Source of the DNA: Crossaster papposus
Lineage: Eukaryota > Echinodermata > Asteroidea > Velatida > Solasteridae
DNA length: 64,000 nucleotides
Direction: 5' to 3'
Assembly (NCBI GenBank): GCA_037893245.1
Contig: JBAIAA010000519.1
Location: 186,001-250,000 of the forward strand
Shown here: one piece after another, positions 1-63,200 of the stretch
Numbering within the stretch: position 1 is the first letter of the stretch
How the letters are laid out: each line of letters opens with the position of its first letter
The notes under the pieces: model-generated
Database searches by the model: none
Seen by the model: the letters and a program-made list of their open reading frames with translations, nothing else
What the model was told of the DNA's origin: nothing
Position numbers and translations under genes: made by a program

Positions 1-355
1 TGTGCCATGGCTCTCCATATATTTGTCAAGAAACTTTCCAAAAATGTTGAGGACTTGTTTTGCTTTAAATGACAATAATTCACAACTGACAAATACACTA
101 TACCTTCTAAGTATAACATGTGCCATGGCTCTCCATATATTTGTCAAGAAACTTTCCAAAAATGTTGAGGACTTGTTTTGCTTTAAATGACAATAATTCA
201 CAACTGACAAATACACTATACCTTCAAAGTATAACATGTGCCATGGCTCTCCATATATTTGTCAAGAAACTTTCCAAAAATGTTGAGGACTTGTTTTGCT
301 TTAAATGACAATAATTCACAACTGACAAATACACTATACCTTCTAAGTATAACAT

Positions 356-463
356 GTGCCATGGCTCTCCATATATTTGTCAAGAAACTTTCCAAAAATG
401 TTGAGGACTTGTTTTGCTTTAATTCACAACTGACAAATACACTATACCTTCTAAGTATAACAT
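356..463 (+). repeat. 108-bp deletion monomer (first of 27)
   Basis: This monomer lacks 10 bp after CTTTAA, giving CTTTAATTCACAAC. The missing segment is bounded by TAA on both sides in the full monomer, so one TAA was lost with it. The same deletion recurs at, for example, 1868, 2,326, 3606, 6190, 12526, 16742, 26845, 36707, 40923 and 48792. It marks related blocks within the array. Confidence 0.93.
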
Positions 464-1035
464 GTGCCATGGCTCTCCATATATTTGTTAAGAAACTTTC
501 CAAAAATGTTGAGGACTTGTTTTGCTTTAAATGACAATGATTCACAACTGACAAATACACTATACCTTCTAAGTATAACATGTGCCATGGCTCTCCATAT
601 ATTTGTCAAGAAACTTTCCAAAAATGTTGAGGACTTGTTTTGCTTTAAATGACAATAATTCACAACTGACAAATACACTATACCTTCTAAGTATAACATG
701 TGCCATGGCTCTCCATATATTTGTCAAGAAACTTTTCAAAAATGTTGAGGACTTGTTTTGCTTTAAATGACAATAATTCACAACTGACAAATACACTATA
801 CCTTCTAAGTATAACATGTGCCATGGCTCTCCATATATTTGTCAAGAAACTTTCCAAAAATGTTGAGGACTTGTTTTGCTTTAAATGACAATAATTCACA
901 ACTGACAAATACACTATACCTTCTAAGTATAACATGTGCCATGGCTCTCCATATATTTGTCAAGAAACTTTCCAAAAATGTTGAGGACTTGTTTTGCTTT
1001 AAATGACAATAATTCACAACTGACAAATACACTAT

Positions 1036-3351
1036 ACCTTCTAAGTATAACATGTGCCATGGCTCTCCATATATTTGTCAAGAAACTTTCCAAAAATGTT
1101 GAGGACTTGTTTTGCTTTAAATGACAATAATTCACAACTGACAAATACACTACCTTCTAAGTATAACATGTGCCATGGCTCTCCATATATTTGTCAAGAA
1201 ACTTTCCAAAAATGTTGAGGACTTGTTTTGCTTTAATTCACAACTGACAAATACACTATACCTTCTAAGTATAACATGTGCCATGGCTCTCCATATATTT
1301 GTTAAGAAACTTTCCAAAAATGTTGAGGACTTGTTTTGCTTTAAATGACAATGATTCACAACTGACAAATACACTATACCTTCTAAGTATAACATGTGCC
1401 ATGGCTCTCCATATATTTGTCAAGAAACTTTTCAAAAATGTTGAGGACTTGTTTTGCTTTAAATGACAATGATTCACAACTGACAAATACACTATACCTT
1501 CTAAGTATAACATGTGCCATGGCTCTCCATATATTTGTCAAGAAACTTTCCAAAAATGTTGAGGACTTGTTTTGCTTTAAATGACAATAATTCACAACTG
1601 ACAAATACACTATACCTTCTAAGTATAACATGTGCCATGGCTCTCCATATATTTGTCAAGAAACTTTCCAAAAATGTTGAGGACTTGTTTTGCTTTAAAT
1701 GACAATAATTCACAACTGACAAATACACTATACCTTCTAAGTATAACATGTGCCATGGCTCTCCATATATTTGTCAAGAAACTTTCCAAAAATGTTGAGG
1801 ACTTGTTTTGCTTTAAATGACAATAATTCACAACTGACAAATACACTATACCTTCTAAGTATAACATGTGCCATGGCTCTCCATATATTTGTCAAGAAAC
1901 TTTCCAAAGATGTTGAGGACTTGTTTTGCTTTAATTCACAACTGACAAATACACTATACCTTCTAAGTATAACATGTGCCATGGCTCTCCATATATTTGT
2001 CAAGAAACTTTCCAAAAATGTTGAGGACTTGTTTTGCTTTAAATGACAATAATTCACAACTGACAAATACACTATACCTTCTAAGTATAACATGTGCCAT
2101 GGCTCTCCATATATTTGTCAAGAAACTTTCCAAAAATGTTGAGGACTTGTTTTGCTTTAAATGACAATAATTCACAACTGACAAATACACTATACCTTCT
2201 AAGTATAACATGTGCCATGGCTCTCCATATATTTGTCAAGAAACTTTCCAAAAATGTTGAGGACTTGTTTTGCTTTAAATGACAATAATTCACAACTGAC
2301 AAATACACTACCTTCTAAGTATAACATGTGCCATGGCTCTCCATATATTTGTCAAGAAACTTTCCAAAAATGTTGAGGACTTGTTTTGCTTTAATTCACA
2401 ACTGACAAATACACTATACCTTCTAAGTATAACATGTGCCATGGCTCTCCATATATTTGTTAAGAAACTTTCCAAAAATGTTGAGGACTTGTTTTGCTTT
2501 AAATGACAATGATTCACAACTGACAAATACACTATACCTTCTAAGTATAACATGTGCCATGGCTCTCCATATATTTGTCAAGAAACTTTTCAAAAATGTT
2601 GAGGACTTGTTTTGCTTTAAATGACAATGATTCACAACTGACAAATACACTATACCTTCTAAGTATAACATGTGCCATGGCTCTCCATATATTTGTCAAG
2701 AAACTTTCCAAAAATGTTGAGGACTTGTTTTGCTTTAAATGACAATAATTCACAACTGACAAATACACTATACCTTCTAAGTATAACATGTGCCATGGCT
2801 CTCCATATATTTGTCAAGAAACTTTCCAAAAATGTTGAGGACTTGTTTTGCTTTAAATGACAATAATTCACAACTGACAAATACACTATACCTTCTAAGT
2901 ATAACATGTGCCATGGCTCTCCATATATTTGTCAAGAAACTTTCCAAAAATGTTGAGGACTTGTTTTGCTTTAAATGACAATAATTCACAACTGACAAAT
3001 ACACTATACCTTCTAAGTATAACATGTGCCATGGCTCTCCATATATTTGTCAAGAAACTTTCCAAAGATGTTGAGGACTTGTTTTGCTTTAATTCACAAC
3101 TGACAAATACACTATACCTTCTAAGTATAACATGTGCCATGGCTCTCCATATATTTGTCAAGAAACTTTCCAAAAATGTTGAGGACTTGTTTTGCTTTAA
3201 ATGACAATAATTCACAACTGACAAATACACTATACCTTCTAAGTATAACATGTGCCATGGCTCTCCATATATTTGTCAAGAAACTTTCCAAAAATGTTGA
3301 GGACTTGTTTTGCTTTAAATGACAATAATTCACAACTGACAAATACACTAT
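1036..3351 (+). repeat. 1,158-bp higher-order unit, two tandem copies
   Basis: Two consecutive copies of a 10-monomer block (7 x 118, 2 x 108, 1 x 116 = 1,158 bp) share their marker variants at an offset of 1,158 bp. The CACTACC 2-bp deletion recurs at about 1148 and 2306, GTTAAG at about 1300 and 2458, the TTTTC variant at about 1430 and 2588, and CCAAAGATG at about 1905 and 3063. The outer boundaries are approximate because flanking monomers are near-identical. Confidence 0.85.
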
Positions 3352-6300
3352 ACCTTCTAAGTATAACATGTGCCATGGCTCTCCATATATTTGTCAAGAA
3401 ACTTTCCAAAAATGTTGAGGACTTGTTTTGCTTTAAATGACAATAATTCACAACTGACAAATACACTATACCTTCAAAGTATAACATGTGCCATGGCTCT
3501 CCATATATTTGTCAAGAAACTTTCCAAAAATGTTGAGGACTTGTTTTGCTTTAAATGACAATAATTCACAACTGACAAATACACTATACCTTCTAAGTAT
3601 AACATGTGCCATGGCTCTCCATATATTTGTCAAGAAACTTTCCAAAAATGTTGAGGACTTGTTTTGCTTTAATTCACAACTGACAAATACACTATACCTT
3701 CTAAGTATAACATGTGCCATGGCTCTCCATATATTTGTTAAGAAACTTTCCAAAAATGTTGAGGACTTGTTTTGCTTTAAATGACAATGATTCACAACTG
3801 ACAAATACACTATACCTTCTAAGTATAACATGTGCCATGGCTCTCCATATATTTGTCAAGAAACTTTCCAAAAATGTTGAGGACTTGTTTTGCTTTAAAT
3901 GACAATAATTCACAACTGACAAATACACTATACCTTCTAAGTATAACATGTGCCATGGCTCTCCATATATTTGTCAAGAAACTTTTCAAAAATGTTGAGG
4001 ACTTGTTTTGCTTTAAATGACAATAATTCACAACTGACAAATACACTATACCTTCTAAGTATAACATGTGCCATGGCTCTCCATATATTTGTCAAGAAAC
4101 TTTCCAAAAATGTTGAGGACTTGTTTTGCTTTAAATGACAATAATTCACAACTGACAAATACACTATACCTTCTAAGTATAACATGTGCCATGGCTCTCC
4201 ATATATTTGTCAAGATAATTTCCAAAAAATGTAAGGACTTGTTTTGCTTTAAATGACAATAATTCATAACTGACAAATACACTATACCTTCTAAGTATAA
4301 CAAGTGCCATGGCTCTCCATATATTTGTCAAGAAACTTTCCAAAAATGTTAAGGACTTGTTTTGCTTTAAATGACAATAATTCATAACTGACAAATACAC
4401 TATACCTTCTAAGTATAACATGTGCCATGGCTCTCCATATATTTGTCAAGAAACTTTCCAAAAATGTTGAGGACTTGTTTTGCTTTAAATGACAATAATT
4501 CACAACTGACAAATACACTATACCTTCTAAGTATAACATGTGCCATGGCTCTCCATATATTTGTCAAGAAACTTTCCAAAAATGTTGAGGACTTGTTTTG
4601 CTTTAAATGACAATAATTCACAACTGACAAATACACTATACCTTCTAAGTATAACATGTGCCATGGCTCTCCATATATTTGTCAAGAAACTTTCCAAAAA
4701 TGTTGAGGACTTGTTTTGCTTTAAATGACAATAATTCACAACTGACAAATACACTATACCTTTTAAGTATAACATGTGCCATGGCTCTCCATATATTTGT
4801 CAAGAAACTTTCCAAAAATGTTGAGGACTTGTTTTGCTTTAAATGACAATAATTCACAACTGACAAATACACTACCTTCTAAGTATAACATGTGCCATGG
4901 CTCTCCATATATTTGTCAAGAAACTTTCCAAAAATGTTGAGGACTTGTTTTGCTTTAAATGACAATAATTCACAACTGACAAATACACTATACCTTCTAA
5001 GTATAACATGTGCCATGGCTCTCCATATATTTGTCAAGAAACTTTCCAAAAATGTTGAGGACTTGTTTTGCTTTAAATGACAATGATTCACAACTGACAA
5101 ATACACTATACCTTCTAAGTATAACATGTGCCATGGCTTTCCATATATTTGTCAAGATAATTTCCAAAAATGTTAAGGACTTGTTTTGCTTTAAATGACA
5201 ATAATTCATAACTGACAAATACACTATACCTTCTAAGTATAACATGTGCCATGGCTCTCCATATATTTGTCAAGAAACTTTCCAAAAATGTTAAGGACTT
5301 GTTTTGCTTTAAATGACAATAATTCACAACTGACAAATACACTATACCTTCTAAGTATAACATGTGCCATGGCTCTCCATATATTTGTCAAGAAACTTTC
5401 CAAAAATGTTGAGGACTTGTTTTGCTTTAAATGACAATAATTCACAACTGACAAATACACTATACCTTCTAAGTATAACATGTGCCATGGCTCTCCATAT
5501 ATTTGTCAAGATAATTTCCAAAACATTTAAGGACTTGTTTTGCTTTAAATGACAATAATTCATAACTGACAAATACACTATACCTTCTAAGTATAACATG
5601 TGCCATGGCTCTCCATATATTTGTCAAGAAACTTTCCAAAAATGTTGAGGACTTGTTTTGCTTTAAATGACAATAATTCACAACTGACAAATACACTATA
5701 CCTTCTAAGTATAACATGTGCCATGGCTCTCCATATATTTGTCAAGAAACTTTCCAAAAATGTTGAGGACTTGTTTTGCTTTAAATGACAATAATTCACA
5801 ACTGACAAATACACTATACCTTCTAAGTATAACATGTGCCATGGCTCTCCATATATTTGTCAAGAAACTTTCCAAAAATGTTGAGGACTTGTTTTGCTTT
5901 AAATGACAATAATTCACAACTGACAAATACACTATACCTTCTAAGTATAACATGTGCCATGGCTCTCCATATATTTGTCAAGAAACTTTCCAAAAATGTT
6001 GAGGACTTGTTTTGCTTTAAATGACAATAATTCACAACTGACAAATACACTATACCTTCTAAGTATAACATGTGCCATGGCTCTCCATATATTTGTCAAG
6101 AAACTTTCCAAAAATGTTGAGGACTTGTTTTCCTTTAAATGACAATAATTCACAACTGACAAATACACTATACCTTCTAAGTATAACATGTGCCATGGCT
6201 CTCCATATATTTGTCAAGAAACTTTCCAAAGATGTTGAGGACTTGTTTTGCTTTAATTCACAACTGACAAATACACTATACCTTCTAAGTATAACATGTG

Positions 6301-9300
6301 CCATGGCTCTCCATATATTTGTCAAGAAACTTTCCAAAAATGTTGAGGACTTGTTTTGCTTTAAATGACAATAATTCACAACTGACAAATACACTATACC
6401 TTCTAAGTATAACATGTGCCATGGCTCTCCATATATTTGTCAAGAAACTTTCCAAAAATGTTGAGGACTTGTTTTGCTATAAATGACAATAATTCACAAC
6501 TGACAAATACACTATACCTTCTAAGTATAACATGTGCCATGGCTCTCCATATATTTGTCAAGAAACTTTCCAAAAATGTTGAGGACTTGTTTTGCTTTAA
6601 ATGACAATAATTCACAACTGACAAATACACTATACCTTCAAAGTATAACATGTGCCATGGCTCTCCATATATTTGTCAAGAAACTTTCCAAAAATGTTGA
6701 GGACTTGTTTTGCTTTAAATGACAATAATTCACAACTGACAAATACACTATACCTTCTAAGTATAACATGTGCCATGGCTCTCCATATATTTGTCAAGAA
6801 ACTTTCCAAAAATGTTGAGGACTTGTTTTGCTTTAATTCACAACTGACAAATACACTATACCTTCTAAGTATAACATGTGCCATGGCTCTCCATATATTT
6901 GTTAAGAAACTTTCCAAAAATGTTGAGGACTTGTTTTGCTTTAAATGACAATGATTCACAACTGACAAATACACTATACCTTCTAAGTATAACATGTGCC
7001 ATGGCTCTCCATATATTTGTCAAGAAACTTTCCAAAAATGTTGAGGACTTGTTTTGCTTTAAATGACAATAATTCACAACTGACAAATACACTATACCTT
7101 CTAAGTATAACATGTGCCATGGCTCTCCATATATTTGTCAAGAAACTTTTCAAAAATGTTGAGGACTTGTTTTGCTTTAAATGACAATAATTCACAACTG
7201 ACAAATACACTATACCTTCTAAGTATAACATGTGCCATGGCTCTCCATATATTTGTCAAGAAACTTTCCAAAAATGTTGAGGACTTGTTTTGCTTTAAAT
7301 GACAATAATTCACAACTGACAAATACACTATACCTTCTAAGTATAACATGTGCCATGGCTCTCCATATATTTGTCAAGATAATTTCCAAAAAATGTAAGG
7401 ACTTGTTTTGCTTTAAATGACAATAATTCATAACTGACAAATACACTATACCTTCTAAGTATAACAAGTGCCATGGCTCTCCATATATTTGTCAAGAAAC
7501 TTTCCAAAAATGTTAAGGACTTGTTTTGCTTTAAATGACAATAATTCATAACTGACAAATACACTATACCTTCTAAGTATAACATGTGCCATGGCTCTCC
7601 ATATATTTGTCAAGAAACTTTCCAAAAATGTTGAGGACTTGTTTTGCTTTAAATGACAATAATTCACAACTGACAAATACACTATACCTTCTAAGTATAA
7701 CATGTGCCATGGCTCTCCATATATTTGTCAAGAAACTTTCCAAAAATGTTGAGGACTTGTTTTGCTTTAAATGACAATAATTCACAACTGACAAATACAC
7801 TATACCTTCTAAGTATAACATGTGCCATGGCTCTCCATATATTTGTCAAGAAACTTTCCAAAAATGTTGAGGACTTGTTTTGCTTTAAATGACAATAATT
7901 CACAACTGACAAATACACTATACCTTTTAAGTATAACATGTGCCATGGCTCTCCATATATTTGTCAAGAAACTTTCCAAAAATGTTGAGGACTTGTTTTG
8001 CTTTAAATGACAATAATTCACAACTGACAAATACACTACCTTCTAAGTATAACATGTGCCATGGCTCTCCATATATTTGTCAAGAAACTTTCCAAAAATG
8101 TTGAGGACTTGTTTTGCTTTAAATGACAATAATTCACAACTGACAAATACACTATACCTTCTAAGTATAACATGTGCCATGGCTCTCCATATATTTGTCA
8201 AGAAACTTTCCAAAAATGTTGAGGACTTGTTTTGCTTTAAATGACAATGATTCACAACTGACAAATACACTATACCTTCTAAGTATAACATGTGCCATGG
8301 CTTTCCATATATTTGTCAAGATAATTTCCAAAAATGTTAAGGACTTGTTTTGCTTTAAATGACAATAATTCATAACTGACAAATACACTATACCTTCTAA
8401 GTATAACATGTGCCATGGCTCTCCATATATTTGTCAAGAAACTTTCCAAAAATGTTAAGGACTTGTTTTGCTTTAAATGACAATAATTCACAACTGACAA
8501 ATACACTATACCTTCTAAGTATAACATGTGCCATGGCTCTCCATATATTTGTCAAGAAACTTTCCAAAAATGTTGAGGACTTGTTTTGCTTTAAATGACA
8601 ATAATTCACAACTGACAAATACACTATACCTTCTAAGTATAACATGTGCCATGGCTCTCCATATATTTGTCAAGATAATTTCCAAAACATTTAAGGACTT
8701 GTTTTGCTTTAAATGACAATAATTCATAACTGACAAATACACTATACCTTCTAAGTATAACATGTGCCATGGCTCTCCATATATTTGTCAAGAAACTTTC
8801 CAAAAATGTTGAGGACTTGTTTTGCTTTAAATGACAATAATTCACAACTGACAAATACACTATACCTTCTAAGTATAACATGTGCCATGGCTCTCCATAT
8901 ATTTGTCAAGAAACTTTCCAAAAATGTTGAGGACTTGTTTTGCTTTAAATGACAATAATTCACAACTGACAAATACACTATACCTTCTAAGTATAACATG
9001 TGCCATGGCTCTCCATATATTTGTCAAGAAACTTTCCAAAAATGTTGAGGACTTGTTTTGCTTTAAATGACAATAATTCACAACTGACAAATACACTATA
9101 CCTTCTAAGTATAACATGTGCCATGGCTCTCCATATATTTGTCAAGAAACTTTCCAAAAATGTTGAGGACTTGTTTTGCTTTAAATGACAATAATTCACA
9201 ACTGACAAATACACTATACCTTCTAAGTATAACATGTGCCATGGCTCTCCATATATTTGTCAAGAAACTTTCCAAAAATGTTGAGGACTTGTTTTCCTTT

Positions 9301-9395
9301 AAATGACAATAATTCACAACTGACAAATACACTATACCTTCTAAGTATAACATGTGCCATGGCTCTCCATATATTTGTCAAGAAACTTTCCAAAA
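3000..9395 (+). repeat. 3,164-bp higher-order unit, two tandem copies
   Basis: Markers in the first copy recur exactly 3,164 bp later: CTTCAAAG (3474/6638), AAAAAATGTAAGG (about 4221/7385), AACAAGTGCC (about 4300/7464), CCTTTTAAG (about 4760/7924), ATGGCTTTCC (about 5133/8297), CAAAACATTTAAGG (about 5519/8683) and TTTTCCTTT (about 6129/9293). The second copy has a private change TTGCTATAAA near 6479. The right edge of the second copy lies in a hybrid monomer at about 9387-9395. Confidence 0.85.
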
Positions 9396-19900: not shown

Positions 19901-21560
19901 ATAACATGTGCCATGGCTCTCCATATATTTGTCAAGAAACTTTCCAAAAATGTTAAGGACTTGTTTTGCTTTAAATGACAATAATTTACAACTGACAAAT
20001 ACACTATACCTTCTAAGTATAACATGTGCCATGGCTCTCCATATATTTGTCAAGAAACTTTCCAAAAATGTTGAGGACTTGTTTTGCTTTAAATGACAAT
20101 AATTCACAACTGACAAATACACTATACCTTCTAAGTATAACATGTGCCATGGCTCTCCATATATTTGTCAAGAAACTTTCCAAAAATGTTAAGGACTTGT
20201 TTTGCTTTAAATGACAATAATTCACAACTGACAAATACACTATACCTTCTAAGTATAACATGTGCCATGGCTCTCCATATATTTGTCAAGAAACTTTCCA
20301 AAAATGTTGAGGACTTGTTTTGCTTTAAATGACAATAATTCATAACTGACAAATACACTATACCTTCTAAGTATAACATGTGCCATGGCTCTCCATATTT
20401 TTGTCAAGAAACTTTCCAAAAATGTTAAGGACTTGTTTTGCTTTAAATGACAATAATTCACAACTGACAAATACACTATACCTTCTAAGTATAACATGTG
20501 CCATGGCTCTCCATATATTTGTCAAGAAACTTTCCAAAAATGTTGAGGACTTGTTTTGCTTTAAATGACAATAATTCACAACTGACAAATACACTATACC
20601 TTCTAAGTATAACATGTGCCATGGCTCTCCATATATTTGTCAAGAAACTTTCCAAAAATGTTGAGGACTTGTTTTGCTTTAAATGACAATAATTCACAAC
20701 TGACAAATACACTATACCTTCTAAGTATAACATGTGCCATGGCTCTCCATATATTTGTCAAGAAACTTTCCAAAAATGTTGAGGACTTGTTTTGCTTTAA
20801 ATGACAATAATTCACAACTGACAAATACACTATACCTTCTAAGTATAACATGTGCCATGGCTCTCCATATATTTGTCAAGAAACTTTCCAAAAATGTTAA
20901 GGACTTGTTTTGCTTTAAATGACAATAATTTATAACTGACAAATACACTATACCTTCTAAGTATAACATGTGCCATGGCTCTCCATATATTTGTCAAGAA
21001 ACTTTCCAAAAATGTTGAGGACTTGTTTTGCTTTAAATGACAATAATTTATAACTGACAAATACACTATACCTTCTAAGTATAACATGTGCCATGGCTCT
21101 CCATATATTTGTCAAGAAACTTTTCAAAAATGTTGAGGACTTGTTTTGCTTTAAATGACAATGATTCACAACTGACAAATACACTATACCTTCTAAGTAT
21201 AACATGTGCCATGGCTCTCCATATATTTGTCAAGAAACTTTCCAAAAATGTTGAGGACTTGTTTTGCTTTAAATGACAATAATTCACAACTGACAAATAC
21301 ACTATACCTTCTAAGTATAACATGTGCCATGGCTCTCCATATATTTGTCAAGAAACTTTCCAAAAATGTTGAGGACTTGTTTTGCTTTAAATGACAATAA
21401 TTCACAACTGACAAATACACTATACCTTCTAAGTATAACATGTGCCATGGCTCTCCATATATTTGTCAAGAAACTTTCCAAAAATGTTGAGGACTTGTTT
21501 TCCTTTAAATGACAATAATTCACAACTGACAAATACACTATACCTTCTAAGTATAACATG
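18240..21560 (+). repeat. 1,652-bp tandem duplication, superunit 1 only
   Basis: Fourteen monomers (14 x 118 = 1,652 bp) are present twice in tandem: the CATATTTTTGTC variant is at about 18745 and 20397, paired TTTATAACTG variants are at about 19278/19393 and 20930/21048, and TTTTCCTTT is at about 19847 and 21499. Superunit 2 has one copy, and the inter-superunit offset drops by exactly 1,652 bp across this point. Confidence 0.8.
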
Positions 21561-35500: not shown

Positions 35501-38500
35501 ATAACTGACAAATACACTATACCTTCTAAGTATAACATGTGCCATGGCTCTCCATATTTTTGTCAAGAAACTTTCCAAAAATGTTAAGGACTTGTTTTGC
35601 TTTAAATGACAATAATTCACAACTGACAAATACACTATACCTTCTAAGTATAACATGTGCCATGGCTCTCCATATATTTGTCAAGAAACTTTCCAAAAAT
35701 GTTGAGGACTTGTTTTGCTTTAAATGACAATAATTCACAACTGACAAATACACTATACCTTCTAAGTATAACATGTGCCATGGCTCTCCATATATTTGTC
35801 AAGAAACTTTCCAAAAATGTTGAGGACTTGTTTTGCTTTAAATGACAATAATTCACAACTGACAAATACACTATACCTTCTAAGTATAACATGTGCCATG
35901 GCTCTCCATATATTTGTCAAGAAACTTTCCAAAAATGTTGAGGACTTGTTTTGCTTTAAATGACAATAATTCACAACTGACAAATACACTACCTTCTAAG
36001 TATAACATGTGCCATGGCTCTCCATATATTTGTCAAGAAACTTTCCAAAAATGTTGAGGACTTGTTTTGCTTTAATTCACAACTGACAAATACACTATAC
36101 CTTCTAAGTATAACATGTGCCATGGCTCTCCATATATTTGTTAAGAAACTTTCCAAAAATGTTGAGGACTTGTTTTGCTTTAAATGACAATGATTCACAA
36201 CTGACAAATACACTATACCTTCTAAGTATAACATGTGCCATGGCTCTCCATATATTTGTCAAGAAACTTTTCAAAAATGTTGAGGACTTGTTTTGCTTTA
36301 AATGACAATGATTCACAACTGACAAATACACTATACCTTCTAATAATAACATGTGCCATGGCTCTCCATATATTTGTCAAGAAACTTTCCAAAAATGTTG
36401 AGGACTTGTTTTGCTTTAAATGACAATAATTCACAACTGACAAATACACTATACCTTCTAAGTATAACATGTGCCATGGCTCTCCATATATTTGTCAAGA
36501 AACTTTCCAAAAATGTTGAGGACTTGTTTTGCTTTAAATGACAATAATTCACAACTGACAAATACACTATACCTTCTAAGTATAACATGTGCCATGGCTC
36601 TCCATATATTTGTCAAGAAACTTTCCAAAAATGTTGAGGACTTGTTTTCCTTTAAATGACAATAATTCACAACTGACAAATACACTATACCTTCTAAGTA
36701 TAACATGTGCCATGGCTCTCCATATATTTGTCAAGAAACTTTCCAAAGATGTTGAGGACTTGTTTTGCTTTAATTCACAACTGACAAATACACTATACCT
36801 TCTAAGTATAACGTGTGCCATGGCTCTCCATATATTTGTCAAGAAACTTTCCAAAAATGTTGAGGACTTGTTTTGCTTTAAATGACAATAATTCACAACT
36901 GACAAATACACTATACCTTCTAAGTATAACATGTGCCATGGCTCTCCATATATTTGTCAAGAAACTTTCAAAAAATGTTGAGGACTTGTTTTGCTTTAAT
37001 TCACAACTGACAAATACACTATACCTTCTAAGTATAACATGTGCCATGGCTCTCCATATATTTGTTAAGAAACTTTCCAAAAATGTTGAGGACTTGTTTT
37101 GCTTTAAATGACAATGATTCACAACTGACAAATACACTATACCTTCTAAGTATAACATGTGCCATGGCTCTCCATATATTTGTCAAGAAACTTTCCAAAA
37201 ATGTTGAGGACTTGTTTTGCTTTAAATGACAATGATTCACAACTGACAAATACACTATACCTTCTAAGTATAACATGTGCCATGGCTCTCCATATATTTG
37301 TCAAGAAACTTTCCAAAAATGTTGAGGACTTGTTTTGCTTTAAATGACAATAATTCACAACTGACAAATACACTATACCTTCTAAGTATAACATGTGCCA
37401 TGGCTCTCCATATATTTGTCAAGAAACTTTCCAAAAATGTTGAGGACTTGTTTTGCTTTAAATGACAATAATTCACAACTGACAAATACACTATACCTTC
37501 TAAGTATAACATGTGCCATGGCTCTCCATATATTTGTCAAGAAACTTTCCAAAAATGTTGAGGACTTGTTTTGCTTTAAATGACAATAATTCACAACTGA
37601 CAAATACACTATACCTTCTAAGTATAACATGTGCCATGGCTCTCCATATATTTGTCAAGAAACTTTCCAAAAATGTTGAGGACTTGTTTTGCTTTAAATG
37701 ACAATGATTCACAACTGACAAATACACTATACCTTCTAAGTATAACATGTGCCATGGCTCTCCATATATTTGTCAAGAAACTTTCCAAAAATATTAAGGA
37801 CTTGTTTTGCTTTAAATGACAATAATTCACAACTGACAAATACACTATACCTTCTAAGTATAACATGTGCCATGGCTCTCCATATATTTGTCAAGAAACT
37901 TTCCAAAAATGTTAAGGACTTGTTTTGCTTTAAATGACAATAATTCACAACTGACAAATACACTATACCTTCTAAGTATAACATGTGCCATGGCTCTCCA
38001 TATATTTGTCAAGAAACTTTCCAAAAATGTGGAGGACTTGTTTTGCTTTAAATGACAATAATTCACAACTGACAAATACACTATACCTTCTAAGTATAAC
38101 ATGTGCCATGGCTCTCCATATATTTGTCAAGAAACTTTCCAAAAATGTTGAGGACTTGTTTTGCTTTAAATGACAATAATTCACAACTGACAAATACACT
38201 ATACCTTCTAAGTATAACATGTGCCATGGCTCTCCATATATTTGTCAAGAAACTTTCCAAAAATGTTAAGGACTTGTTTTGCTTTAAATGACAATAATTC
38301 ACAACTGACAAATACACTATACCTTCTAAGTATAACATGTGCCATGGCTCTCCATATATTTGTCAAGAAACTTTCCAAAAATGTTGAGGACTTGTTTTGC
38401 TTTAAATGACAATAATTCACAACTGACAAATACACTATACCTTCTAAGTATAACATGTGCCATGGCTCTCCATATATTTGTCAAGAAACTTTCCAAAAAT

Positions 38501-41500
38501 GTTAAGGACTTGTTTTGCTTTAAATGACAATAATTCACAACTGACAAATACACTATACCTTCTAAGTATAACATGTGCCATGGCTCTCCATATATTTGTC
38601 AAGAAACTTTCCAAAAATGTTGAGGACTTGTTTTGCTTTAAATGACAATAATTCATAACTGACAAATACACTATACCTTCTAAGTATAACATGTGCCATG
38701 GCTCTCCATATTTTTGTCAAGAAACTTTCCAAAAATGTTAAGGACTTGTTTTGCTTTAAATGACAATAATTCACAACTGACAAATACACTATACCTTCTA
38801 AGTATAACATGTGCCATGGCTCTCCATATATTTGTCAAGAAACTTTCCAAAAATGTTGAGGACTTGTTTTGCTTTAAATGACAATAATTCACAACTGACA
38901 AATACACTATACCTTCTAAGTATAACATGTGCCATGGCTCTCCATATATTTGTCAAGAAACTTTCCAAAAATGTTGAGGACTTGTTTTGCTTTAAATGAC
39001 AATAATTCACAACTGACAAATACACTATACCTTCTAAGTATAACATGTGCCATGGCTCTCCATATATTTGTCAAGAAACTTTCCAAAAATGTTGAGGACT
39101 TGTTTTGCTTTAAATGACAATAATTCACAACTGACAAATACACTATACCTTCTAAGTATAACATGTGCCATGGCTCTCCATATATTTGTCAAGAAACTTT
39201 CCAAAAATGTTAAGGACTTGTTTTGCTTTAAATGACAATAATTTATAACTGACAAATACACTATACCTTCTAAGTATAACATGTGCCATGGCTCTCCATA
39301 TATTTGTCAAGAAACTTTCCAAAAATGTTGAGGACTTGTTTTGCTTTAAATGACAATAATTTATAACTGACAAATACACTATACCTTCTAAGTATAACAT
39401 GTGCCATGGCTCTCCATATATTTGTCAAGAAACTTTTCAAAAATGTTGAGGACTTGTTTTGCTTTAAATGACAATGATTCACAACTGACAAATACACTAT
39501 ACCTTCTAAGTATAACATGTGCCATGGCTCTCCATATATTTGTCAAGAAACTTTCCAAAAATGTTGAGGACTTGTTTTGCTTTAAATGACAATAATTCAC
39601 AACTGACAAATACACTATACCTTCTAAGTATAACATGTGCCATGGCTCTCCATATATTTGTCAAGAAACTTTCCAAAAATGTTGAGGACTTGTTTTGCTT
39701 TAAATGACAATAATTCACAACTGACAAATACACTATACCTTCTAAGTATAACATGTGCCATGGCTCTCCATATATTTGTCAAGAAACTTTCCAAAAATGT
39801 TGAGGACTTGTTTTCCTTTAAATGACAATAATTCACAACTGACAAATACACTATACCTTCTAAGTATAACATGTGCCATGGCTCTCCATATATTTGTCAA
39901 GAAACTTTCCAAAAATGTTAAGGACTTGTTTTGCTTTAAATGACAATAATTTATAACTGACAAATACACTATACCTTCTAAGTATAACATGTGCCATGGC
40001 TCTCCATATATTTGTCAAGAAACTTTCCAAAAATGTTGAGGACTTGTTTTGCTTTAAATGACAATAATTTATAACTGACAAATACACTATACCTTCTAAG
40101 TATAACATGTGCCATGGCTCTCCATATATTTGTCAAGAAACTTTCCAAAAATGTTGAGGACTTGTTTTGCTTTAAATGACAATAATTCACAACTGACAAA
40201 TACACTACCTTCTAAGTATAACATGTGCCATGGCTCTCCATATATTTGTCAAGAAACTTTCCAAAAATGTTGAGGACTTGTTTTGCTTTAATTCACAACT
40301 GACAAATACACTATACCTTCTAAGTATAACATGTGCCATGGCTCTCCATATATTTGTTAAGAAACTTTCCAAAAATGTTGAGGACTTGTTTTGCTTTAAA
40401 TGACAATGATTCACAACTGACAAATACACTATACCTTCTAAGTATAACATGTGCCATGGCTCTCCATATATTTGTCAAGAAACTTTTCAAAAATGTTGAG
40501 GACTTGTTTTGCTTTAAATGACAATGATTCACAACTGACAAATACACTATACCTTCTAAGTATAACATGTGCCATGGCTCTCCATATATTTGTCAAGAAA
40601 CTTTCCAAAAATGTTGAGGACTTGTTTTGCTTTAAATGACAATAATTCACAACTGACAAATACACTATACCTTCTAAGTATAACATGTGCCATGGCTCTC
40701 CATATATTTGTCAAGAAACTTTCCAAAAATGTTGAGGACTTGTTTTGCTTTAAATGACAATAATTCACAACTGACAAATACACTATACCTTCTAAGTATA
40801 ACATGTGCCATGGCTCTCCATATATTTGTCAAGAAACTTTCCAAAAATGTTGAGGACTTGTTTTCCTTTAAATGACAATAATTCACAACTGACAAATACA
40901 CTATACCTTCTAAGTATAACATGTGCCATGGCTCTCCATATATTTGTCAAGAAACTTTCCAAAGATGTTGAGGACTTGTTTTGCTTTAATTCACAACTGA
41001 CAAATACACTATACCTTCTAAGTATAACGTGTGCCATGGCTCTCCATATATTTGTCAAGAAACTTTCCAAAAATGTTGAGGACTTGTTTTGCTTTAAATG
41101 ACAATAATTCACAACTGACAAATACACTATACCTTCTAAGTATAACATGTGCCATGGCTCTCCATATATTTGTCAAGAAACTTTCAAAAAATGTTGAGGA
41201 CTTGTTTTGCTTTAATTCACAACTGACAAATACACTATACCTTCTAAGTATAACATGTGCCATGGCTCTCCATATATTTGTTAAGAAACTTTCCAAAAAT
41301 GTTGAGGACTTGTTTTGCTTTAAATGACAATGATTCACAACTGACAAATACACTATACCTTCTAAGTATAACATGTGCCATGGCTCTCCATATATTTGTC
41401 AAGAAACTTTCCAAAAATGTTGAGGACTTGTTTTGCTTTAAATGACAATGATTCACAACTGACAAATACACTATACCTTCTAAGTATAACATGTGCCATG

Positions 41501-44500
41501 GCTCTCCATATATTTGTCAAGAAACTTTCCAAAAATGTTGAGGACTTGTTTTGCTTTAAATGACAATAATTCACAACTGACAAATACACTATACCTTCTA
41601 AGTATAACATGTGCCATGGCTCTCCATATATTTGTCAAGAAACTTTCCAAAAATGTTGAGGACTTGTTTTGCTTTAAATGACAATAATTCACAACTGACA
41701 AATACACTATACCTTCTAAGTATAACATGTGCCATGGCTCTCCATATATTTGTCAAGAAACTTTCCAAAAATGTTGAGGACTTGTTTTGCTTTAAATGAC
41801 AATAATTCACAACTGACAAATACACTATACCTTCTAAGTATAACATGTGCCATGGCTCTCCATATATTTGTCAAGAAACTTTCCAAAAATATTAAGGACT
41901 TGTTTTGCTTTAAATGACAATAATTCACAACTGACAAATACACTATACCTTCTAAGTATAACATGTGCCATGGCTCTCCATATATTTGTCAAGAAACTTT
42001 CCAAAAATGTTAAGGACTTGTTTTGCTTTAAATGACAATAATTCACAACTGACAAATACACTATACCTTCTAAGTATAACATGTGCCATGGCTCTCCATA
42101 TATTTGTCAAGAAACTTTCCAAAAATGTGGAGGACTTGTTTTGCTTTAAATGACAATAATTCACAACTGACAAATACACTATACCTTCTAAGTATAACAT
42201 GTGCCATGGCTCTCCATATATTTGTCAAGAAACTTTCCAAAAATGTTGAGGACTTGTTTTGCTTTAAATGACAATAATTCACAACTGACAAATACACTAT
42301 ACCTTCTAAGTATAACATGTGCCATGGCTCTCCATATATTTGTCAAGAAACTTTCCAAAAATGTTAAGGACTTGTTTTGCTTTAAATGACAATAATTCAC
42401 AACTGACAAATACACTATACCTTCTAAGTATAACATGTGCCATGGCTCTCCATATATTTGTCAAGAAACTTTCCAAAAATGTTGAGGACTTGTTTTGCTT
42501 TAAATGACAATAATTCACAACTGACAAATACACTATACCTTCTAAGTATAACATGTGCCATGGCTCTCCATATATTTGTCAAGAAACTTTCCAAAAATGT
42601 TAAGGACTTGTTTTGCTTTAAATGACAATAATTCACAACTGACAAATACACTATACCTTCTAAGTATAACATGTGCCATGGCTCTCCATATATTTGTCAA
42701 GAAACTTTCCAAAAATGTTGAGGACTTGTTTTGCTTTAAATGACAATAATTCATAACTGACAAATACACTATACCTTCTAAGTATAACATGTGCCATGGC
42801 TCTCCATATTTTTGTCAAGAAACTTTCCAAAAATGTTAAGGACTTGTTTTGCTTTAAATGACAATAATTCACAACTGACAAATACACTATACCTTCTAAG
42901 TATAACATGTGCCATGGCTCTCCATATATTTGTCAAGAAACTTTCCAAAAATGTTGAGGACTTGTTTTGCTTTAAATGACAATAATTCACAACTGACAAA
43001 TACACTATACCTTCTAAGTATAACATGTGCCATGGCTCTCCATATATTTGTCAAGAAACTTTCCAAAAATGTTGAGGACTTGTTTTGCTTTAAATGACAA
43101 TAATTCACAACTGACAAATACACTATACCTTCTAAGTATAACATGTGCCATGGCTCTCCATATATTTGTCAAGAAACTTTCCAAAAATGTTGAGGACTTG
43201 TTTTGCTTTAAATGACAATAATTCACAACTGACAAATACACTATACCTTCTAAGTATAACATGTGCCATGGCTCTCCATATATTTGTCAAGAAACTTTCC
43301 AAAAATGTTAAGGACTTGTTTTGCTTTAAATGACAATAATTTATAACTGACAAATACACTATACCTTCTAAGTATAACATGTGCCATGGCTCTCCATATA
43401 TTTGTCAAGAAACTTTCCAAAAATGTTGAGGACTTGTTTTGCTTTAAATGACAATAATTTATAACTGACAAATACACTATACCTTCTAAGTATAACATGT
43501 GCCATGGCTCTCCATATATTTGTCAAGAAACTTTTCAAAAATGTTGAGGACTTGTTTTGCTTTAAATGACAATGATTCACAACTGACAAATACACTATAC
43601 CTTCTAAGTATAACATGTGCCATGGCTCTCCATATATTTGTCAAGAAACTTTCCAAAAATGTTGAGGACTTGTTTTGCTTTAAATGACAATAATTCACAA
43701 CTGACAAATACACTATACCTTCTAAGTATAACATGTGCCATGGCTCTCCATATATTTGTCAAGAAACTTTCCAAAAATGTTGAGGACTTGTTTTGCTTTA
43801 AATGACAATAATTCACAACTGACAAATACACTATACCTTCTAAGTATAACATGTGCCATGGCTCTCCATATATTTGTCAAGAAACTTTCCAAAAATGTTG
43901 AGGACTTGTTTTCCTTTAAATGACAATAATTCACAACTGACAAATACACTATACCTTCTAAGTATAACATGTGCCATGGCTCTCCATATATTTGTCAAGA
44001 AACTTTCCAAAAATGTTAAGGACTTGTTTTGCTTTAAATGACAATAATTTATAACTGACAAATACACTATACCTTCTAAGTATAACATGTGCCATGGCTC
44101 TCCATATATTTGTCAAGAAACTTTCCAAAAATGTTGAGGACTTGTTTTGCTTTAAATGACAATAATTTATAACTGACAAATACACTATACCTTCTAAGTA
44201 TAACATGTGCCATGGCTCTCCATATATTTGTCAAGAAACTTTCCAAAAATGTTGAGGACTTGTTTTGCTTTAAATGACAATAATTCACAACTGACAAATA
44301 CACTACCTTCTAAGTATAACATGTGCCATGGCTCTCCATATATTTGTCAAGAAACTTTCCAAAAATGTTGAGGACTTGTTTTGCTTTAATTCACAACTGA
44401 CAAATACACTATACCTTCTAAGTATAACATGTGCCATGGCTCTCCATATATTTGTCAAGAAACTTTCCAAAAATGTTGAGGACTTGTTTTGCTTTAAATG

Positions 44501-47500
44501 ACAATGATTCACAACTGACAAATACACTATACCTTCTAAGTATAACATGTGCCATGGCTCTCCATATATTTGTCAAGAAACTTTCCAAAAATGTTGAGGA
44601 CTTGTTTTGCTTTAAATGACAATAATTCACAACTGACAAATACACTATACCTTCTAAGTATAACATGTGCCATGGCTCTCCATATATTTGTCAAGAAACT
44701 TTCCAAAAATGTTGAGGACTTGTTTTGCTTTAAATTACAATAATTCACAACTGACAAATACACTATACCTTCTAAGTATAACATGTGCCATGGCTCTCCA
44801 TATATTTGTCAAGAAACTTTCCAAAAATGTTGAGGACTTGTTTTGCTTTAAATGACAATAATTCACAACTGACAAATACACTATACCTTCTAAGTATAAC
44901 ATGTGCCATGGCTCTCCATATATTTGTCAAGAAACTTTCCAAAAATGTTGAGGACTTGTTTTGCTTTAAATGACAATGATTCACAACTGACAAATACACT
45001 ATACCTTCTAAGTATAACATGTGCCATGGCTCTCCATATATTTGTCAAGAAACTTTCCAAAAATATTAAGGACTTGTTTTGCTTTAAATGACAATAATTC
45101 ACAACTGACAAATACACTATACCTTCTAAGTATAACATGTGCCATGGCTCTCCATATATTTGTCAAGAAACTTTCCAAAAATGTTAAGGACTTGTTTTGC
45201 TTTAAATGACAATAATTCACAACTGACAAATACACTATACCTTCTAAGTATAACATGTGCCATGACTCTCCATATATTTGTCAAGAAACTTTCCAAAAAT
45301 GTGGAGGACTTGTTTTGCTTTAAATGACAATAATTCATAACTGACAAATACACTATACCTTCTAAGTATAACATGTGCCATGGCTCTCCATATTTTTGTC
45401 AAGAAACTTTCCAAAAATGTTGAGGACTTGTTTTGCTTTAAATGACAATAATTCACAACTGACAAATACACTATACCTTCTAAGTATAACATGTGCCATG
45501 GCTCTCCATATATTTGTCAAGAAACTTTCCAAAAATGTTGAGGACTTGTTTTGCTTTAAATGACAATAATTCACAACTGACAAATACACTATACCTTCTA
45601 AGTATAACATGTGCCATAGCTCTCCATATATTTGTCAAGATAATTTCCAAAACATTTAAGGACTTGTTTTGCTTTAAATGACAATAATTCATAACTGACA
45701 AATACACTATACCTTCTAAGTATAACATGTGCCATGGCTCTCCATATATTTGTCAAGAAACTTTCCAAAAATGTTAAGGACTTGTTTTGCTTTAAATGAC
45801 AATAATTCACAACTGACAAATACACTATACCTTCTAAGTATAACATGTGCCATGGCTCTCCATATATTTGTCAAGAAACTTTCCAAAAATGTTGAGACTT
45901 GTTTTGCTTTAAATGACAATAATTCATAACTGACAAATACACTATACCTTCTAAGTATAACATGTGCCATGGCTCTCCATATTTTTGTCAAGAAACTTTC
46001 CAAAAATGTTAAGGACTTGTTTTGCTTTAAATGACAATAATTCACAACTGACAAATACACTATACCTTCTAAGTATAACATGTGCCATGGCTCTCCATAT
46101 ATTTGTCAAGAAACTTTCCAAAAATGTTGAGGACTTGTTTTGCTTTAAATGACAATAATTCACAACTGACAAATACACTATACCTTCTAAGTATAACATG
46201 TGCCATGGCTCTCCATATATTTGTCAAGAAACTTTCCAAAAATGTTAAGGACTTGTTTTGCTTTAAATGACAATAATTCACAACTGACAAATACACTATA
46301 CCTTCTAAGTATAACATGTGCCATGACTCTCCATATATTTGTCAAGAAACTTTCCAAAAATGTGGAGGACTTGTTTTGCTTTAAATGACAATAATTCACA
46401 ACTGACAAATACACTATACCTTCTAAGTATAACATGTGCCATGGCTCTCCATATATTTGTCAAGAAACTTTCCAAAAATGTTAAGGATTTGTTTTGCTTT
46501 AAATGACAATAATTCACAACTGACAAATACACTATACCTTCTAAGTATAACATGTGCCATGGCTCTCCATATATTTGTCAAGAAACTTTCCAAAAATGTT
46601 GAGGACTTGTTTTGCTTTAAATGACAATAATTCACAACTGACAAATACACTATACCTTCTAAGTATAACATGTGCCATGGCTCTCCATATATTTGTCAAG
46701 AAACTTTCCAAAAATGTTAAGGACTTGTTTTGCTTTAAATGACAATAATTCACAACTGACAAATACACTATACCTTCTAAGTATAACATGTGCCATGGCT
46801 CTCCATATATTTGTCAAGAAACTTTCCAAAAATGTTGAGGACTTGTTTTGCTTTAAATGACAATAATTCATAACTGACAAATACACTATACCTTCTAAGT
46901 ATAACATGTGCCATGGCTCTCCATATTTTTGTCAAGAAACTTTCCAAAAATGTTAAGGACTTGTTTTGCTTTAAATGACAATAATTCACAACTGACAAAT
47001 ACACTATACCTTCTAAGTATAACATGTGCCATGGCTCTCCATATATTTGTCAAGAAACTTTCCAAAAATGTTGAGGACTTGTTTTGCTTTAAATGACAAT
47101 AATTCACAACTGACAAATACACTATACCTTCTAAGTATAACATGTGCCATGGCTCTCCATATATTTGTCAAGAAACTTTCCAAAAATGTTAAGGACTTGT
47201 TTTGCTTTAAATGACAATAATTCACAACTGACAAATACACTATACCTTCTAAGTATAACATGTGCCATGGCTCTCCATATATTTGTCAAGAAACTTTCCA
47301 AAAATGTTGAGGACTTGTTTTGCTTTAAATGACAATAATTCACAACTGACAAATACACTATACCTTCTAAGTATAACATGTGCCATGGCTCTCCATATAT
47401 TTGTCAAGAAACTTTCCAAAAATGTTAAGGACTTGTTTTGCTTTAAATGACAATAATTCACAACTGACAAATACACTATACCTTCTAAGTATAACATGTG

Positions 47501-48200
47501 CCATGACTCTCCATATATTTGTCAAGAAACTTTCCAAAAATGTGGAGGACTTGTTTTGCTTTAAATGACAATAATTCACAACTGACAAATACACTATACC
47601 TTCTAAGTATAACATGTGCCATGGCTCTCCATATATTTGTCAAGAAACTTTCCAAAAATGTTGAGGACTTGTTTTGCTTTAAATGACAATAATTCACAAC
47701 TGACAAATACACTATACCTTCTAAGTATAACATGTGCCATGGCTCTCCATATATTTGTCAAGAAACTTTCCAAAAATGTTAAGGACTTGTTTTGCTTTAA
47801 ATGACAATAATTCACAACTGACAAATACACTATACCTTCTAAGTATAACATGTGCCATGGCTCTCCATATATTTGTCAAGAAACCTTCCAAAAATGTTGA
47901 GGACTTGTTTTGCTTTAAATGACAATAATTCATAACTGACAAATACACTATACCTTCTAAGTATAACATGTGCCATGGCTCTCCATATTTTTGTCAAGAA
48001 ACTTTTCAAAAATGTTGAGGACTTGTTTTGCTTTAAATGACAATGATTCACAACTGACAAATACACTATACCTTCTAAGTATAACATGTGCCATGGCTCT
48101 CCATATATTTGTCAAGAAACTTTCCAAAAATGTTGAGGACTTGTTTTGCTTTAAATGACAATAATTCACAACTGACAAATACACTATACCTTCTAAGTAT
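26600..48200 (+). repeat. superunit copy 2 (about 21.6 kb)
   Basis: This is the second copy of the block at about 5.94-25.95 kb. It differs by having an extra 3,526-bp tandem copy, by lacking one monomer near 41.7 kb, by having one instead of two copies of a 1,652-bp block, and by lacking one monomer near 47.5 kb. Several single-base changes are private to one copy, for example GCCACGGC at 14160-14167 only in copy 1, which argues against a simple assembly duplicate. Confidence 0.82.
29170..36220 (+). repeat. 3,526-bp tandem duplication, superunit 2 only
   Basis: Markers recur at an offset of 3,526 bp: CAAAACATTTAAGG (about 29337/32863), CCAAAACTGTTG (about 29813/33339), CCATAAATG (about 30163/33689), GCCCTGGC (31192/34718), TTTTGATTT (about 31371/34897) and the 1-bp-short GTTGAGACTTG (31940/35466). 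Superunit 1 has one copy of this block, at about 8.5-12.0 kb. Confidence 0.82.
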
Positions 48201-52100: not shown

Positions 52101-52783
52101 CATATATTTGTCAAGAAACTTTCCAAAAATGTTGAGGACTTGTTTTGCTTTAAATGACAATAATTCACAACTGACAAATACACTATACCTTCTAAGTATA
52201 ACATGTGCCATGGCTCTCCATATATTTGTCAAGAAACTTTCCAAAAATGTTGAGGACTTGTTTTGCTTTAAATGACAATAATTCATAACTGACAAATACA
52301 CTATACCTTCTAAGTATAACATGTGCCATGGCTCTCCATATATTTGTCAAGAAACTTTCCAAAAATGTTAAGGACTTGTTTTGCTTTAAATGACAATAAT
52401 TCACAACTGACAAATACACTATACCTTCTAAGTATAACATGTGCCATGGCTCTACATATATTTGTCAAGAAACTTTCCAAAAATGTTGAGGACTTGTTTT
52501 GCTTTAAATGACAATAATTCACAACTGACAAATACACTATACCTTCTAAGTATAACATGTGCCATGGCTCTCCATATATTTGTCAAGAAACTTTCCAAAA
52601 ATGTTGAGGACTTGTTTTGCTTTAAATGACAATGATTCACAACTGACAAATACACTATACCTTCTAAGTATAACATGTGCCATGGCTCTCCATATATTTG
52701 TCAAGAAACTTTCCAAAAATGTTGAGGACTTGTTTTGCTTTAAATGACAATGATTCACAACTGACAAATACACTATACCTTCT

Positions 52784-53739
52784 GGCCCGTATGCATGAAA
52801 GAGGTATAACTTATACTGAAAGTAAGCCTATTCAGAGAATAGTTATTCCTGTCATTGTGGTATAATGAAATCGGTATGCACGAAACGTATGTTAACAATT
52901 CCAGGCATAACTATCATGCGAATAAGCTATTCCATGGTATTATAGGGTTATGCAATGGTTTATTGATTTGTGATTCCAAAGAAATCTATTAATAGGACTG
53001 TCTTCGCGCTACTATTCTGAATCACAATATGGGTTACACGTAGATCTGGCCACATGGCGTCAAAGGGAGATCTGCCAAGCACTGGGAATATCGTAGCGCC
53101 GTTGATATGTAAGCCTAAAGACCAACGGAAACGGGCAAAAAAACTGGGAAAGTACTGAAAAGGAATACATGTTGGACTGTTTAACGGACCACGTTTTTAT
53201 AAAATATAAAATATAAAGGTATCTAACAAATAATGAATATACTATACATGCTATCAGAAACCTACAAGACCATATTTTGGATGATCCTATATATTTCGGA
53301 TGCTAAAAAGTACGAACAAAATAGAACAACTTAACAAACATATCACTTTAATGCAGGGCACTATCCCTCTTTGACAAAGAACTCCAGTATAATTGACGAA
53401 AACAAAGGCATTGCAGAGTAATTGGAATATCATTTTACGCCAGTATCCTCCAAACAGAAGGCAAAGTTATGAGACATCCACTGGAGTCGAACTCCAAATT
53501 GTCTTAATCCACTCCTTAAACATACCCCCTGGTTGGTGTAAGTTACACCAGGAAATCTGCCGTATTTACACCACATAATAAGCTATTCCACCTTTGTGCA
53601 TACGACTCCCTATTCGAGGTTAAAAGTTAGGCCACAGTTTAACTTATACCCCGTTCATGCATACCAACAGTGGTAAAACCATTCATTTATACCTGGTATA
53701 AGCTATTCTGCCGCTATTCCGCTTTCATGCATACGGGCC
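52784..53739. mobile_element. 956-bp non-autonomous TIR element inside the satellite
   Basis: The left end GGCCCGTATGCATGAAAG is matched in inverted orientation at the right end; over 27 bp the ends agree at 24 positions. Satellite sequence continues on both sides and TCT is present at both junctions (52781-52783 and 53740-53742) where one monomer has it once, so a 3-bp target duplication is likely. The TIR core GTATGCATGAA recurs with small changes inside (52874-52884, and inverted at about 53594-53603 and 53654-53664), as in subterminal transposase-binding motifs. No open frame resembling a transposase is present. A 3-bp duplication and this architecture suggest a PIF/Harbinger-like MITE, but the family assignment is inference. 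Confidence 0.88.
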
Positions 53740-53897
53740 TCTAAGTATAACATGTGCCATGGCTCTCCATATATTTGTCAAGAAAATTTCCAAAAATGTT
53801 AAGGACTTGTTTTGCTTTAAATGACAATAATTCATAACTGACAAATACACTATACCTTCTAAGTATAACATGTGCCATGGCTCTCCATTTATTTGTC
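53740..53897 (+). repeat. terminal satellite fragment, 1.2 diverged monomers
   Basis: After the inserted element the satellite resumes in register with TCTAAGTATAAC, one full monomer and a 26-base start of another ending CCATTTATTTGTC. It carries variants such as AAGAAAATTTCC and TTCATAACTG that are rare or absent in the homogenised array, as expected at an array edge. The match stops at 53897. Confidence 0.92.
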
Positions 53898-53908
53898 TTC
53901 GTTTACAG
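53898..53908 (+). other. 3' splice site abutting the satellite
   Basis: TTCGTTTACAG separates the last satellite base from the exon that starts at 53909. The usual position of a branch point (about 18-40 nt upstream of AG) therefore falls inside satellite sequence. The monomer itself supplies candidate branch motifs, CTTCTAAG at about 53857-53864 and AACTGAC further upstream. Confidence 0.8.

Positions 53909-63200
<9,292 letters not shown>

Follow-up and report, generated by a model that had tools for sequence, protein, structure and literature searches.

An intron of a CNTNAP/neurexin IV-type gene holds a 118-bp satellite of about 475 copies, which was most probably born in place at this locus and then enlarged by the copying of large blocks. 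We analysed it in a window of 64,000 nucleotides and on the parent contig (C519). The origins of satellites are usually hidden, as arrays are old, numerous and poorly assembled. Here a single contig shows the two edges of the array, its source family and the record of its duplications, within a gene that has an open frame.

Extent and organization of the satellite array

TRF analysis of the window identifies a single 118-bp array, at 1–52783 on the + strand, with 449.9 copies and 97% matches. An anchor scan yields 450 complete monomers of 48 types, the commonest being represented by 174 identical copies, in agreement with the approximately 450 monomers of the preliminary description. The left limit of the array lies 2,883 bp outside the window (C519:183118), and the whole contig contains 474 complete monomers, again of 48 types. 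The array occupies C519:183118–239897, or 56,780 bp counting a 956-bp element. It is thus even longer than the more than 52 kb of satellite first described, with the correction that 52784–53739 is transposon-like rather than satellite. This non-coding element is inserted within a satellite monomer; it has perfect 18-bp TIRs, is flanked on both sides by a TCT duplication, and its longest stop-free stretch is 80 codons. The satellite restarts at 53740, and its final copies (53740–53897, + strand) close the right edge with TTTGTC.

The array consists of one homogenised unit arranged head to tail, with no opposite-strand copies of the monomer within it. The orientation that it shares with the exons is without special meaning for a non-coding repeat. 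Rfam gave no matches over the window at gathering scores, the RNA structure of the dimer showed no signal on the two strands (z of −1.20 and −0.93), and exact monomer words found no matches in viral and prokaryote contig collections, as expected for animal DNA.

Host gene and the split LamG2 domain

The domains of the gene, all on one strand, follow the order F5/8C, LamG, LamG, EGF, fibrinogen-like, LamG, EGF, which is that of CNTNAP/neurexin IV. This order and the exons on both sides support the proposed location of the array within an intron of a CNTNAP-type gene. F5/8C is represented by two Pfam pieces, one above and one below the cut-off, and LamG1 by a further two; LamG2, EGF, LamG3 and the second EGF are also Pfam matches. 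The five N-terminal domain pieces detected all lie upstream of the array, in order and on the same strand.

The first third of LamG2 is encoded by an exon at C519:182672–182829, on the same strand as the array, with a GT donor and a fitting phase. It ends 288 bp before the array, and both array flanks are non-satellite sequence in one contig. The domain continues in the exon at 53909–54058, where the match begins at position 48 of the 126-position profile, and in that at 54692–54857. Upstream and downstream exons join in phase and complete LamG2 (positions 1–124 of the 126 in the Pfam profile), raising its score from 48 to 73.9 bits. The array therefore splits a LamG domain, as had been suggested, and the upstream exon is on the same molecule as the rest, by strand and contig, at the level of the assembly. 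At that level the gene thus withstands the refutation that the preliminary description had set out. The intron that carries the array is observed directly in the assembly, with its donor after C519:182829 and its acceptor before C519:239909. It measures 57,079 bp, while the nine neighbouring introns range from 448 to 1667 bp.

The remaining exons, also on the + strand, encode EGF (55595–55701), the fibrinogen-like region (57369–57467, 58639–58842, 59800–59882 and 60424–60625), LamG3 (61436–61662 and 62353–62518), and the end of LamG3 with the second EGF (62967–63200). For the fibrinogen-like part, the best Pfam match (DUF4859) is below the cut-off and the PDB gave no significant match. The fibrinogen-like, LamG3 and EGF portion aligns with a stretch of CNTNAP2 at 36% over 395 amino acids, which is a lead only. 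Residues 61–139 and 339–544 align to neurexin-1-alpha, and the approximately 200 residues between them are unmatched among the matches listed. A classical neurexin was considered and rejected: there, EGF would be followed closely by LamG, whereas here an insert of about 200 residues separates the two.

A 57-kb intron among short introns is abnormal for this gene, and might mean that the array splits or silences it, leaving the downstream part as a pseudogene or under its own promoter. We consider this very unlikely, given that the ten delimited downstream exons form one open frame of 545 residues and that the N-terminal domain pieces are all found upstream in their proper order and strand. Furthermore, the acceptor adjoining the array scores 8.1 bits, inside the span of 3.4–11.1 for the ten acceptors. 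The same open frame leaves the earlier suggestion of a locally broken allele without support, although the expansion seems so recent that an intact frame cannot prove that the gene tolerates the array. A second haplotype was also considered and rejected. With 80 of 517 candidates scored, ten of the 34 matches listed fall in exons of the gene itself. The other 24 are at different sites and would, at 28.5–60 bits and 30–48% identity, be paralogues rather than alleles.

Array edges and the dispersed source repeat

The right edge of the array lies 11 nt upstream of the exon at 53909, and this gap (53898–53908, + strand) includes the AG acceptor. In monomer coordinates, the array opens at position 23 on the left and closes at position 27 on the right, giving an overlap of five bases, TTGTC. 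By itself, such a coincidence of edge phases would arise by chance in about 6 of 118 cases.

A search of the 1.02-Gb genome with the monomer scored 22 places, one in the array and 21 elsewhere; the search skips very common words, so that a further array of the monomer could be missed. Among the matches scored, the dispersed copies are located on 20 contigs (C3 carries two) and show 75–82% identity, beginning at monomer positions 17–47 and finishing at 91–107. Another lone diverged copy of the source repeat is found in the host gene itself (59470–59541, + strand), in the intron between the exons at 58639–58842 and 59800–59882. Across these 22 diverged copies, that is, the 21 dispersed matches and the copy at 59470, the monomer has the majority base of the family at 62 of the 83 positions within 20–102 and at 7 of 35 outside; agreement in the middle of the monomer is partly selection, since the dispersed copies were chosen by similarity to it, and several of the 21 are near-identical to each other and so are not 21 independent witnesses. 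In addition, the family runs on past the left array edge: its consensus is matched as well as by the left flank in only 3 of 3000 random 45-mers from the same contig.

To the right of position 23, the leftmost copy departs from the monomer at four sites. Most of the family agrees with this copy at position 33 and with the monomer at positions 37, 38 and 83, so that this copy cannot be read simply as the most ancestral one, a point against birth in place.

Probable birth of the satellite in the intron

The preliminary description contrasted the array with satellites of heterochromatin. As stated, this contrast lacks support, as the edges and relatives point to a birth in the intron from a dispersed repeat. 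A satellite family existing elsewhere might instead have been transferred into the intron, for example as a circle or on a mobile carrier, before spreading. Satellites are known to move, repeat-carried satellites are described in oyster (in the account of PMC7492417), and other arrays could have escaped the word-based search. Nevertheless, we judge a transfer improbable, since one array and single diverged copies were found among the matches scored, the source repeat extends beyond the left edge, and both edges are in one phase. The right side is also too tight for the end of a carrier: with the exon 11 nt away, there is no room on this side for a terminal Helitron/Helentron module. In eight family copies, a search for right-end motifs (an inverted right end, TTAAAGG-type ends) in inverted position found none.

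Birth in place would have started from an old interspersed repeat near the 3′ end of an intron of roughly 0.4 kb. Two copies of TTGTC, one within the repeat and the other 118 bp downstream, just before the acceptor, would have provided the microhomology for a first tandem duplication; we infer both this cause and the order of events. The duplicated stretch, the last ~120 bp of the intron, would have become the founding monomer, and the tandem unit would then have reached about 475 copies and 56.8 kb. With growth wholly upstream of the last 11 nt, the acceptor and exon would have stayed undisrupted. Most of the pyrimidine tract would now come from the terminal copy, as probably would the branch point, an A predicted at −41. 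The array would probably be transcribed and spliced out like any other intron, which would cost time during transcription.

We give about even chances to a more specific reading, in which the birth is readable at this single locus, the monomer being the intron end, in which part of an eroded dispersed repeat is joined to the sequence leading up to the splice site, the acceptor capping one end of the array, and the terminal copy acting as a working branch point and pyrimidine tract. If this is true, array growth would be physically coupled to splicing, and the length of the intron could shift by tens of kilobases between alleles while the protein is untouched.

Proposed growth by large blocks

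A segment of 7,770 bp recurs with two mismatches at a lag of 24,181, and another of 4,067 bp recurs exactly at a lag of 22,411. Exact repeats of at least 1,500 bp cover 48% of the array within the window. The longest ordered block of monomers that is repeated comprises 44 monomers, compared with at most 9 in 40 shuffles. Identical neighbouring pairs number 71 against 74.2 ± 5.8 in shuffled order, and runs of identical monomers reach a maximum of 4. Large pieces recur at five spacings, from 19,965 to 24,181. Blocks are inserted or deleted between these pieces, and local repeats of smaller blocks are also present. The region 3113–9026 was tried as one long repeat at a lag of 23,819 and rejected, as the match breaks down some 2.9 kb in, with 2,012 mismatches over the 5,914 bp. 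Instead of being one clean copy of the first half, the rest of the array in the window consists of pieces at several lags.

In later stages, large blocks would thus have undergone unequal exchange or re-replication, at spacings of 3–5 kb and 20–24 kb, and slippage of single monomers would not have been the growth mode. The long near-perfect blocks could contain assembly duplication, which is a point against this explanation. Part of the length might then be an artefact, if chained haplotypes or repeated traversal of the graph had inflated a shorter array, as the 7,770-bp and 4,067-bp repeats could suggest. We regard this as doubtful: the five different spacings, the block indels and the local repeats of small blocks are what stepwise growth predicts, and the edges and the intron are independent of copy number.

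Relation to known systems

With one homogenised unit repeated head to tail over a long stretch between two exons of one gene, the array resembles known large intronic tandem repeats. TRACT is described as an intronic 30-bp VNTR of 3–30+ kb in human CACNA1C, a working gene (PMC13131567, a preprint). It is likewise a long tandem array in which variant units record growth, which that account attributes to runs of identical units. Here, such runs do not exceed 4 and large mixed blocks prevail, in an array of 56.8 kb with a 118-bp unit that adjoins a splice acceptor. The Drosophila Y-loop genes kl-3 and kl-5, as presented in PMC6508621, also have satellite DNA between exons of one gene, in introns that are transcribed. 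Those satellites are simple, megabases long and on the Y chromosome, whereas here a complex unit fills a single 57-kb intron that is probably transcribed. The central repeats of oyster Helentrons are repeat-carried satellites in the account of PMC7492417 (PMC9659126 is a review in this area). They resemble the present array in that the tandem unit is related to an interspersed repeat; here, however, no mobile element encloses the array on its right side, and the unit includes other intron sequence and ends at a splice site. A literature search, mostly of titles and the beginnings of abstracts, turned up neither a satellite in a CNTNAP intron nor the 118-bp monomer.

The locus permits direct tests of how an array starts (by microhomology duplication) and how it grows (by blocks rather than single units), as well as of the effect of an approximately 135-fold jump in intron length on the expression of an adhesion gene.

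RNA-processing signals and CpG content

The array within the window contains few splice-like sites of at least 2 bits in the sense orientation (7 donors and 23 acceptors, compared with 450 and 1315 in antisense), and neither AATAAA nor ATTAAA occurs on its sense strand. Together with the scarcity of CpG, these features could suggest a monomer selected for invisibility to RNA processing or DNA methylation, which we consider extremely unlikely. Selection for an RNA-inert monomer is not significant against shuffled monomers, 5.6% of which are equally poor in splice sites and 4.0% of which also lack poly-A signals. The antisense strand is equally poor for its own composition (5.7%), the CpG loss is accounted for by the founder, and all copies amount to one observation.

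The absence of CpG from the consensus, noted previously, is real, with 5 CpG in 52,783 bp of array against 1355 expected (o/e 0.004). It mostly reflects a single founder monomer counted some 475 times over, and we rejected it as a special property because CpG decay in that founder suffices. Among 20,000 shuffles of the circular monomer at constant composition, 558 are also without CpG. At monomer position 70, where the satellite has T, 11 of the 22 diverged copies have C (10 of these in CpG), ten have T and one has A. In agreement with this decay, the TpG o/e is raised to 1.97 in the array, compared with 1.16 in the flank.

Extent of the array and its host intron

The analyzed stretch (positions 186,001–250,000 of C519, the parent contig) comes from a 1.02-Gb assembly of 1841 contigs, and a 118-bp tandem repeat fills its first 52,783 bases with 97% matches. 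Including the part further left on the contig, the array comprises 474 complete monomers of 48 types, a count that leaves out an insertion-split monomer and the partial end copies. The commonest type is represented by 185 identical copies, and monomer lengths are 118 (417 monomers), 108 (31), 116 (16), and 117 bp (10). No reverse-orientation copies are found inside the array. The final satellite copies reach 53897, and after 11 nt the exon at 53909 begins.

Of the 57,079 bp of the array-bearing intron, the array and an inserted element together take up 56,780 bp; 288 bp of non-satellite sequence and these 11 nt make up the rest. The next nine introns span 448 to 1667 bp. With exons on both sides, the satellite array of more than 52 kb placed by the preliminary description inside a CNTNAP-type intron is borne out.

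The inserted element (52784–53739, 956 bp) interrupts a satellite monomer and has an 18-bp perfect terminal inverted repeat. TCT flanks it on both sides; we call this a target duplication, and take its 3-bp length to be reminiscent of PIF/Harbinger elements. The longest stop-free stretch is 80 codons. Repeated subterminal TTCATGCATAC-like motifs are also present.

Host gene and splicing

Ten exons right of the array, set by eye, splice into a single open frame of 545 residues. GT-AG borders were chosen when the exons were delimited and are therefore no independent test of the model; the continuous frame and the domains are. Pfam identifies LamG, EGF, LamG, and EGF in the product, and a genome search with it returns ten exon matches on C519. 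The first of these exons enters the 126-position LamG profile at position 48. The missing part is filled by an upstream exon with the start of LamG2, the second LamG domain, seen in fetched upstream DNA at C519:182672–182829. Joined across the array, the exons cover profile positions 1–124 of 126 and score 73.9 bits versus 48 bits, confirming the expectation that the domain begun before the array continues after it.

LamG1 lies in two pieces still further upstream on the same strand. Upstream on this strand are also two F5/8C pieces, at C519:174617–174790 (58.9 bits) and C519:176488–176619 (24.7 bits, alone under the 28.2 cut-off). The domain order is that of CNTNAP/neurexin-IV. For the fibrinogen-like middle part, no Pfam match reaches the cut-off and no significant PDB match is found; its only alignment, a tentative one, is to a CNTNAP2 stretch.

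Most likely, judging from sequence, the array is transcribed and then spliced out as intron. The acceptor next to it scores 8.1 bits, with the ten acceptors spanning 3.4–11.1. No AG occurs between −47 and the acceptor, and the last satellite copy contains TATAAC with its A at −41; both the branch point and the greater part of the pyrimidine tract thus seem to come from satellite. Other branch-point candidates lie further upstream, also in satellite. The sense strand of the array is poor in splice-like sites, as are 5.6% of shuffled monomers, so we claim no selection for a splice-site-poor monomer.

Source and origin of the satellite

When the genome was searched with the monomer, 22 places received a score. 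One of them is in the array; the other 21 are single diverged copies with 75–82% identity confined to the monomer middle. These 21 copies, all collected through their similarity to the monomer, were aligned with a copy at 59470–59541 in another intron of the same gene, whose alignment score of 76.5 exceeds all 500 shuffles (maximum 68). The monomer agrees with the majority of this dispersed family at 62 of 83 positions within 20–102 and at 7 of 35 outside. Several pairs among eight dispersed copies compared are similar over at least 100 bp. Near-identical copies (L028/L031, L032/L034/L035, and L024/L033) mean that the 21 are not all independent. In these sets the near-identity at different genome places includes the flanks, so they lie within larger duplications or retained haplotypes.

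The sequence directly left of the array resembles the leftward part of the family (3 of 3000 random C519 45-mers score equally high). Since the family similarity carries on past it, the sequence at the left edge looks like the original repeat insertion, and the monomer like the right part of this insertion together with some 35 bp of intron sequence from outside it.

The array starts with TTGTC at monomer position 23 and ends with TTGTC at position 27. The first duplication could have occurred by 5-bp microhomology between TTGTC copies bounding one unit, a process that requires one unit with TTGTC at both sides. An edge overlap of 0–5 is expected for random edges about 5% of the time, and the shared edges support microhomology duplication without proving it. 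The leftmost copy differs from the monomer by one family-like and three private states, and so alone gives no polarity. A one-copy intron is computed at about 422 bp, similar to the neighboring introns.

Growth and CpG content

With monomers in the window coded by type, the longest series repeated in the same order is 44, whereas the 40 shuffles never gave more than 9. Runs of a single type do not exceed 4, and identical neighbors (71) show no excess over shuffled order (74.2 ± 5.8). The 7,770-bp segment 9805–17574 recurs at 33986–41755 with 2 mismatches, and 21185–25251 recurs exactly at 43596–47662. Local block recurrences have spacings of 3,164 to 5,061. The long repeat consists of pieces at lags of 23,819, 20,655, 24,181, 19,965, and 22,411, not a single clean diagonal. 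We read the repeated blocks as block duplication, in which the latest step would have involved about half of the array, with smaller gains and losses coming after it. The long repeats may include some assembly duplication.

The array contains 5 CpG in 55,666 bp versus 1355 expected, a deficit that is striking only when copies are treated as independent. At monomer position 70 the satellite has TpG, and the 22 diverged copies have C in 11 and T in 10, with CpG in ten. Founder effect and ordinary CpG decay are the likely causes. The array, described as CpG-free and invisible to CpG methylation, indeed has almost no methylatable CpG, but five are present and the deficit probably reflects its founder.

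Known systems and nearby repeats

Earlier papers describe a long intronic tandem repeat, the CACNA1C TRACT (PMC13131567), and satellite-filled introns in Drosophila kl-3 and kl-5 (PMC6508621). Kinship between satellites and interspersed repeats is also on record (PMC7492417). The Crossaster locus combines all three features, with readable edges.

Several other repeats lie nearby. Nested imperfect inverted repeats within one intron (54976–55458; arms of 70, 49, 39, and 33 nt, 82–90% complementary) are probably a foldback or MITE-like element. Another intron holds a 67-nt inverted repeat with arms 5 nt apart (56689–56827, 94% complementary) and inverted 37-nt arms separated by 376 nt (55954–56403, 92%). 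Inverted 52-nt arms at 63209–63807 (83% complementary, separated by 495 nt) are likely a mobile-element pair. A 13-bp minisatellite of 17.7 copies (60694–60923) occupies the intron directly after exon 60424–60625.
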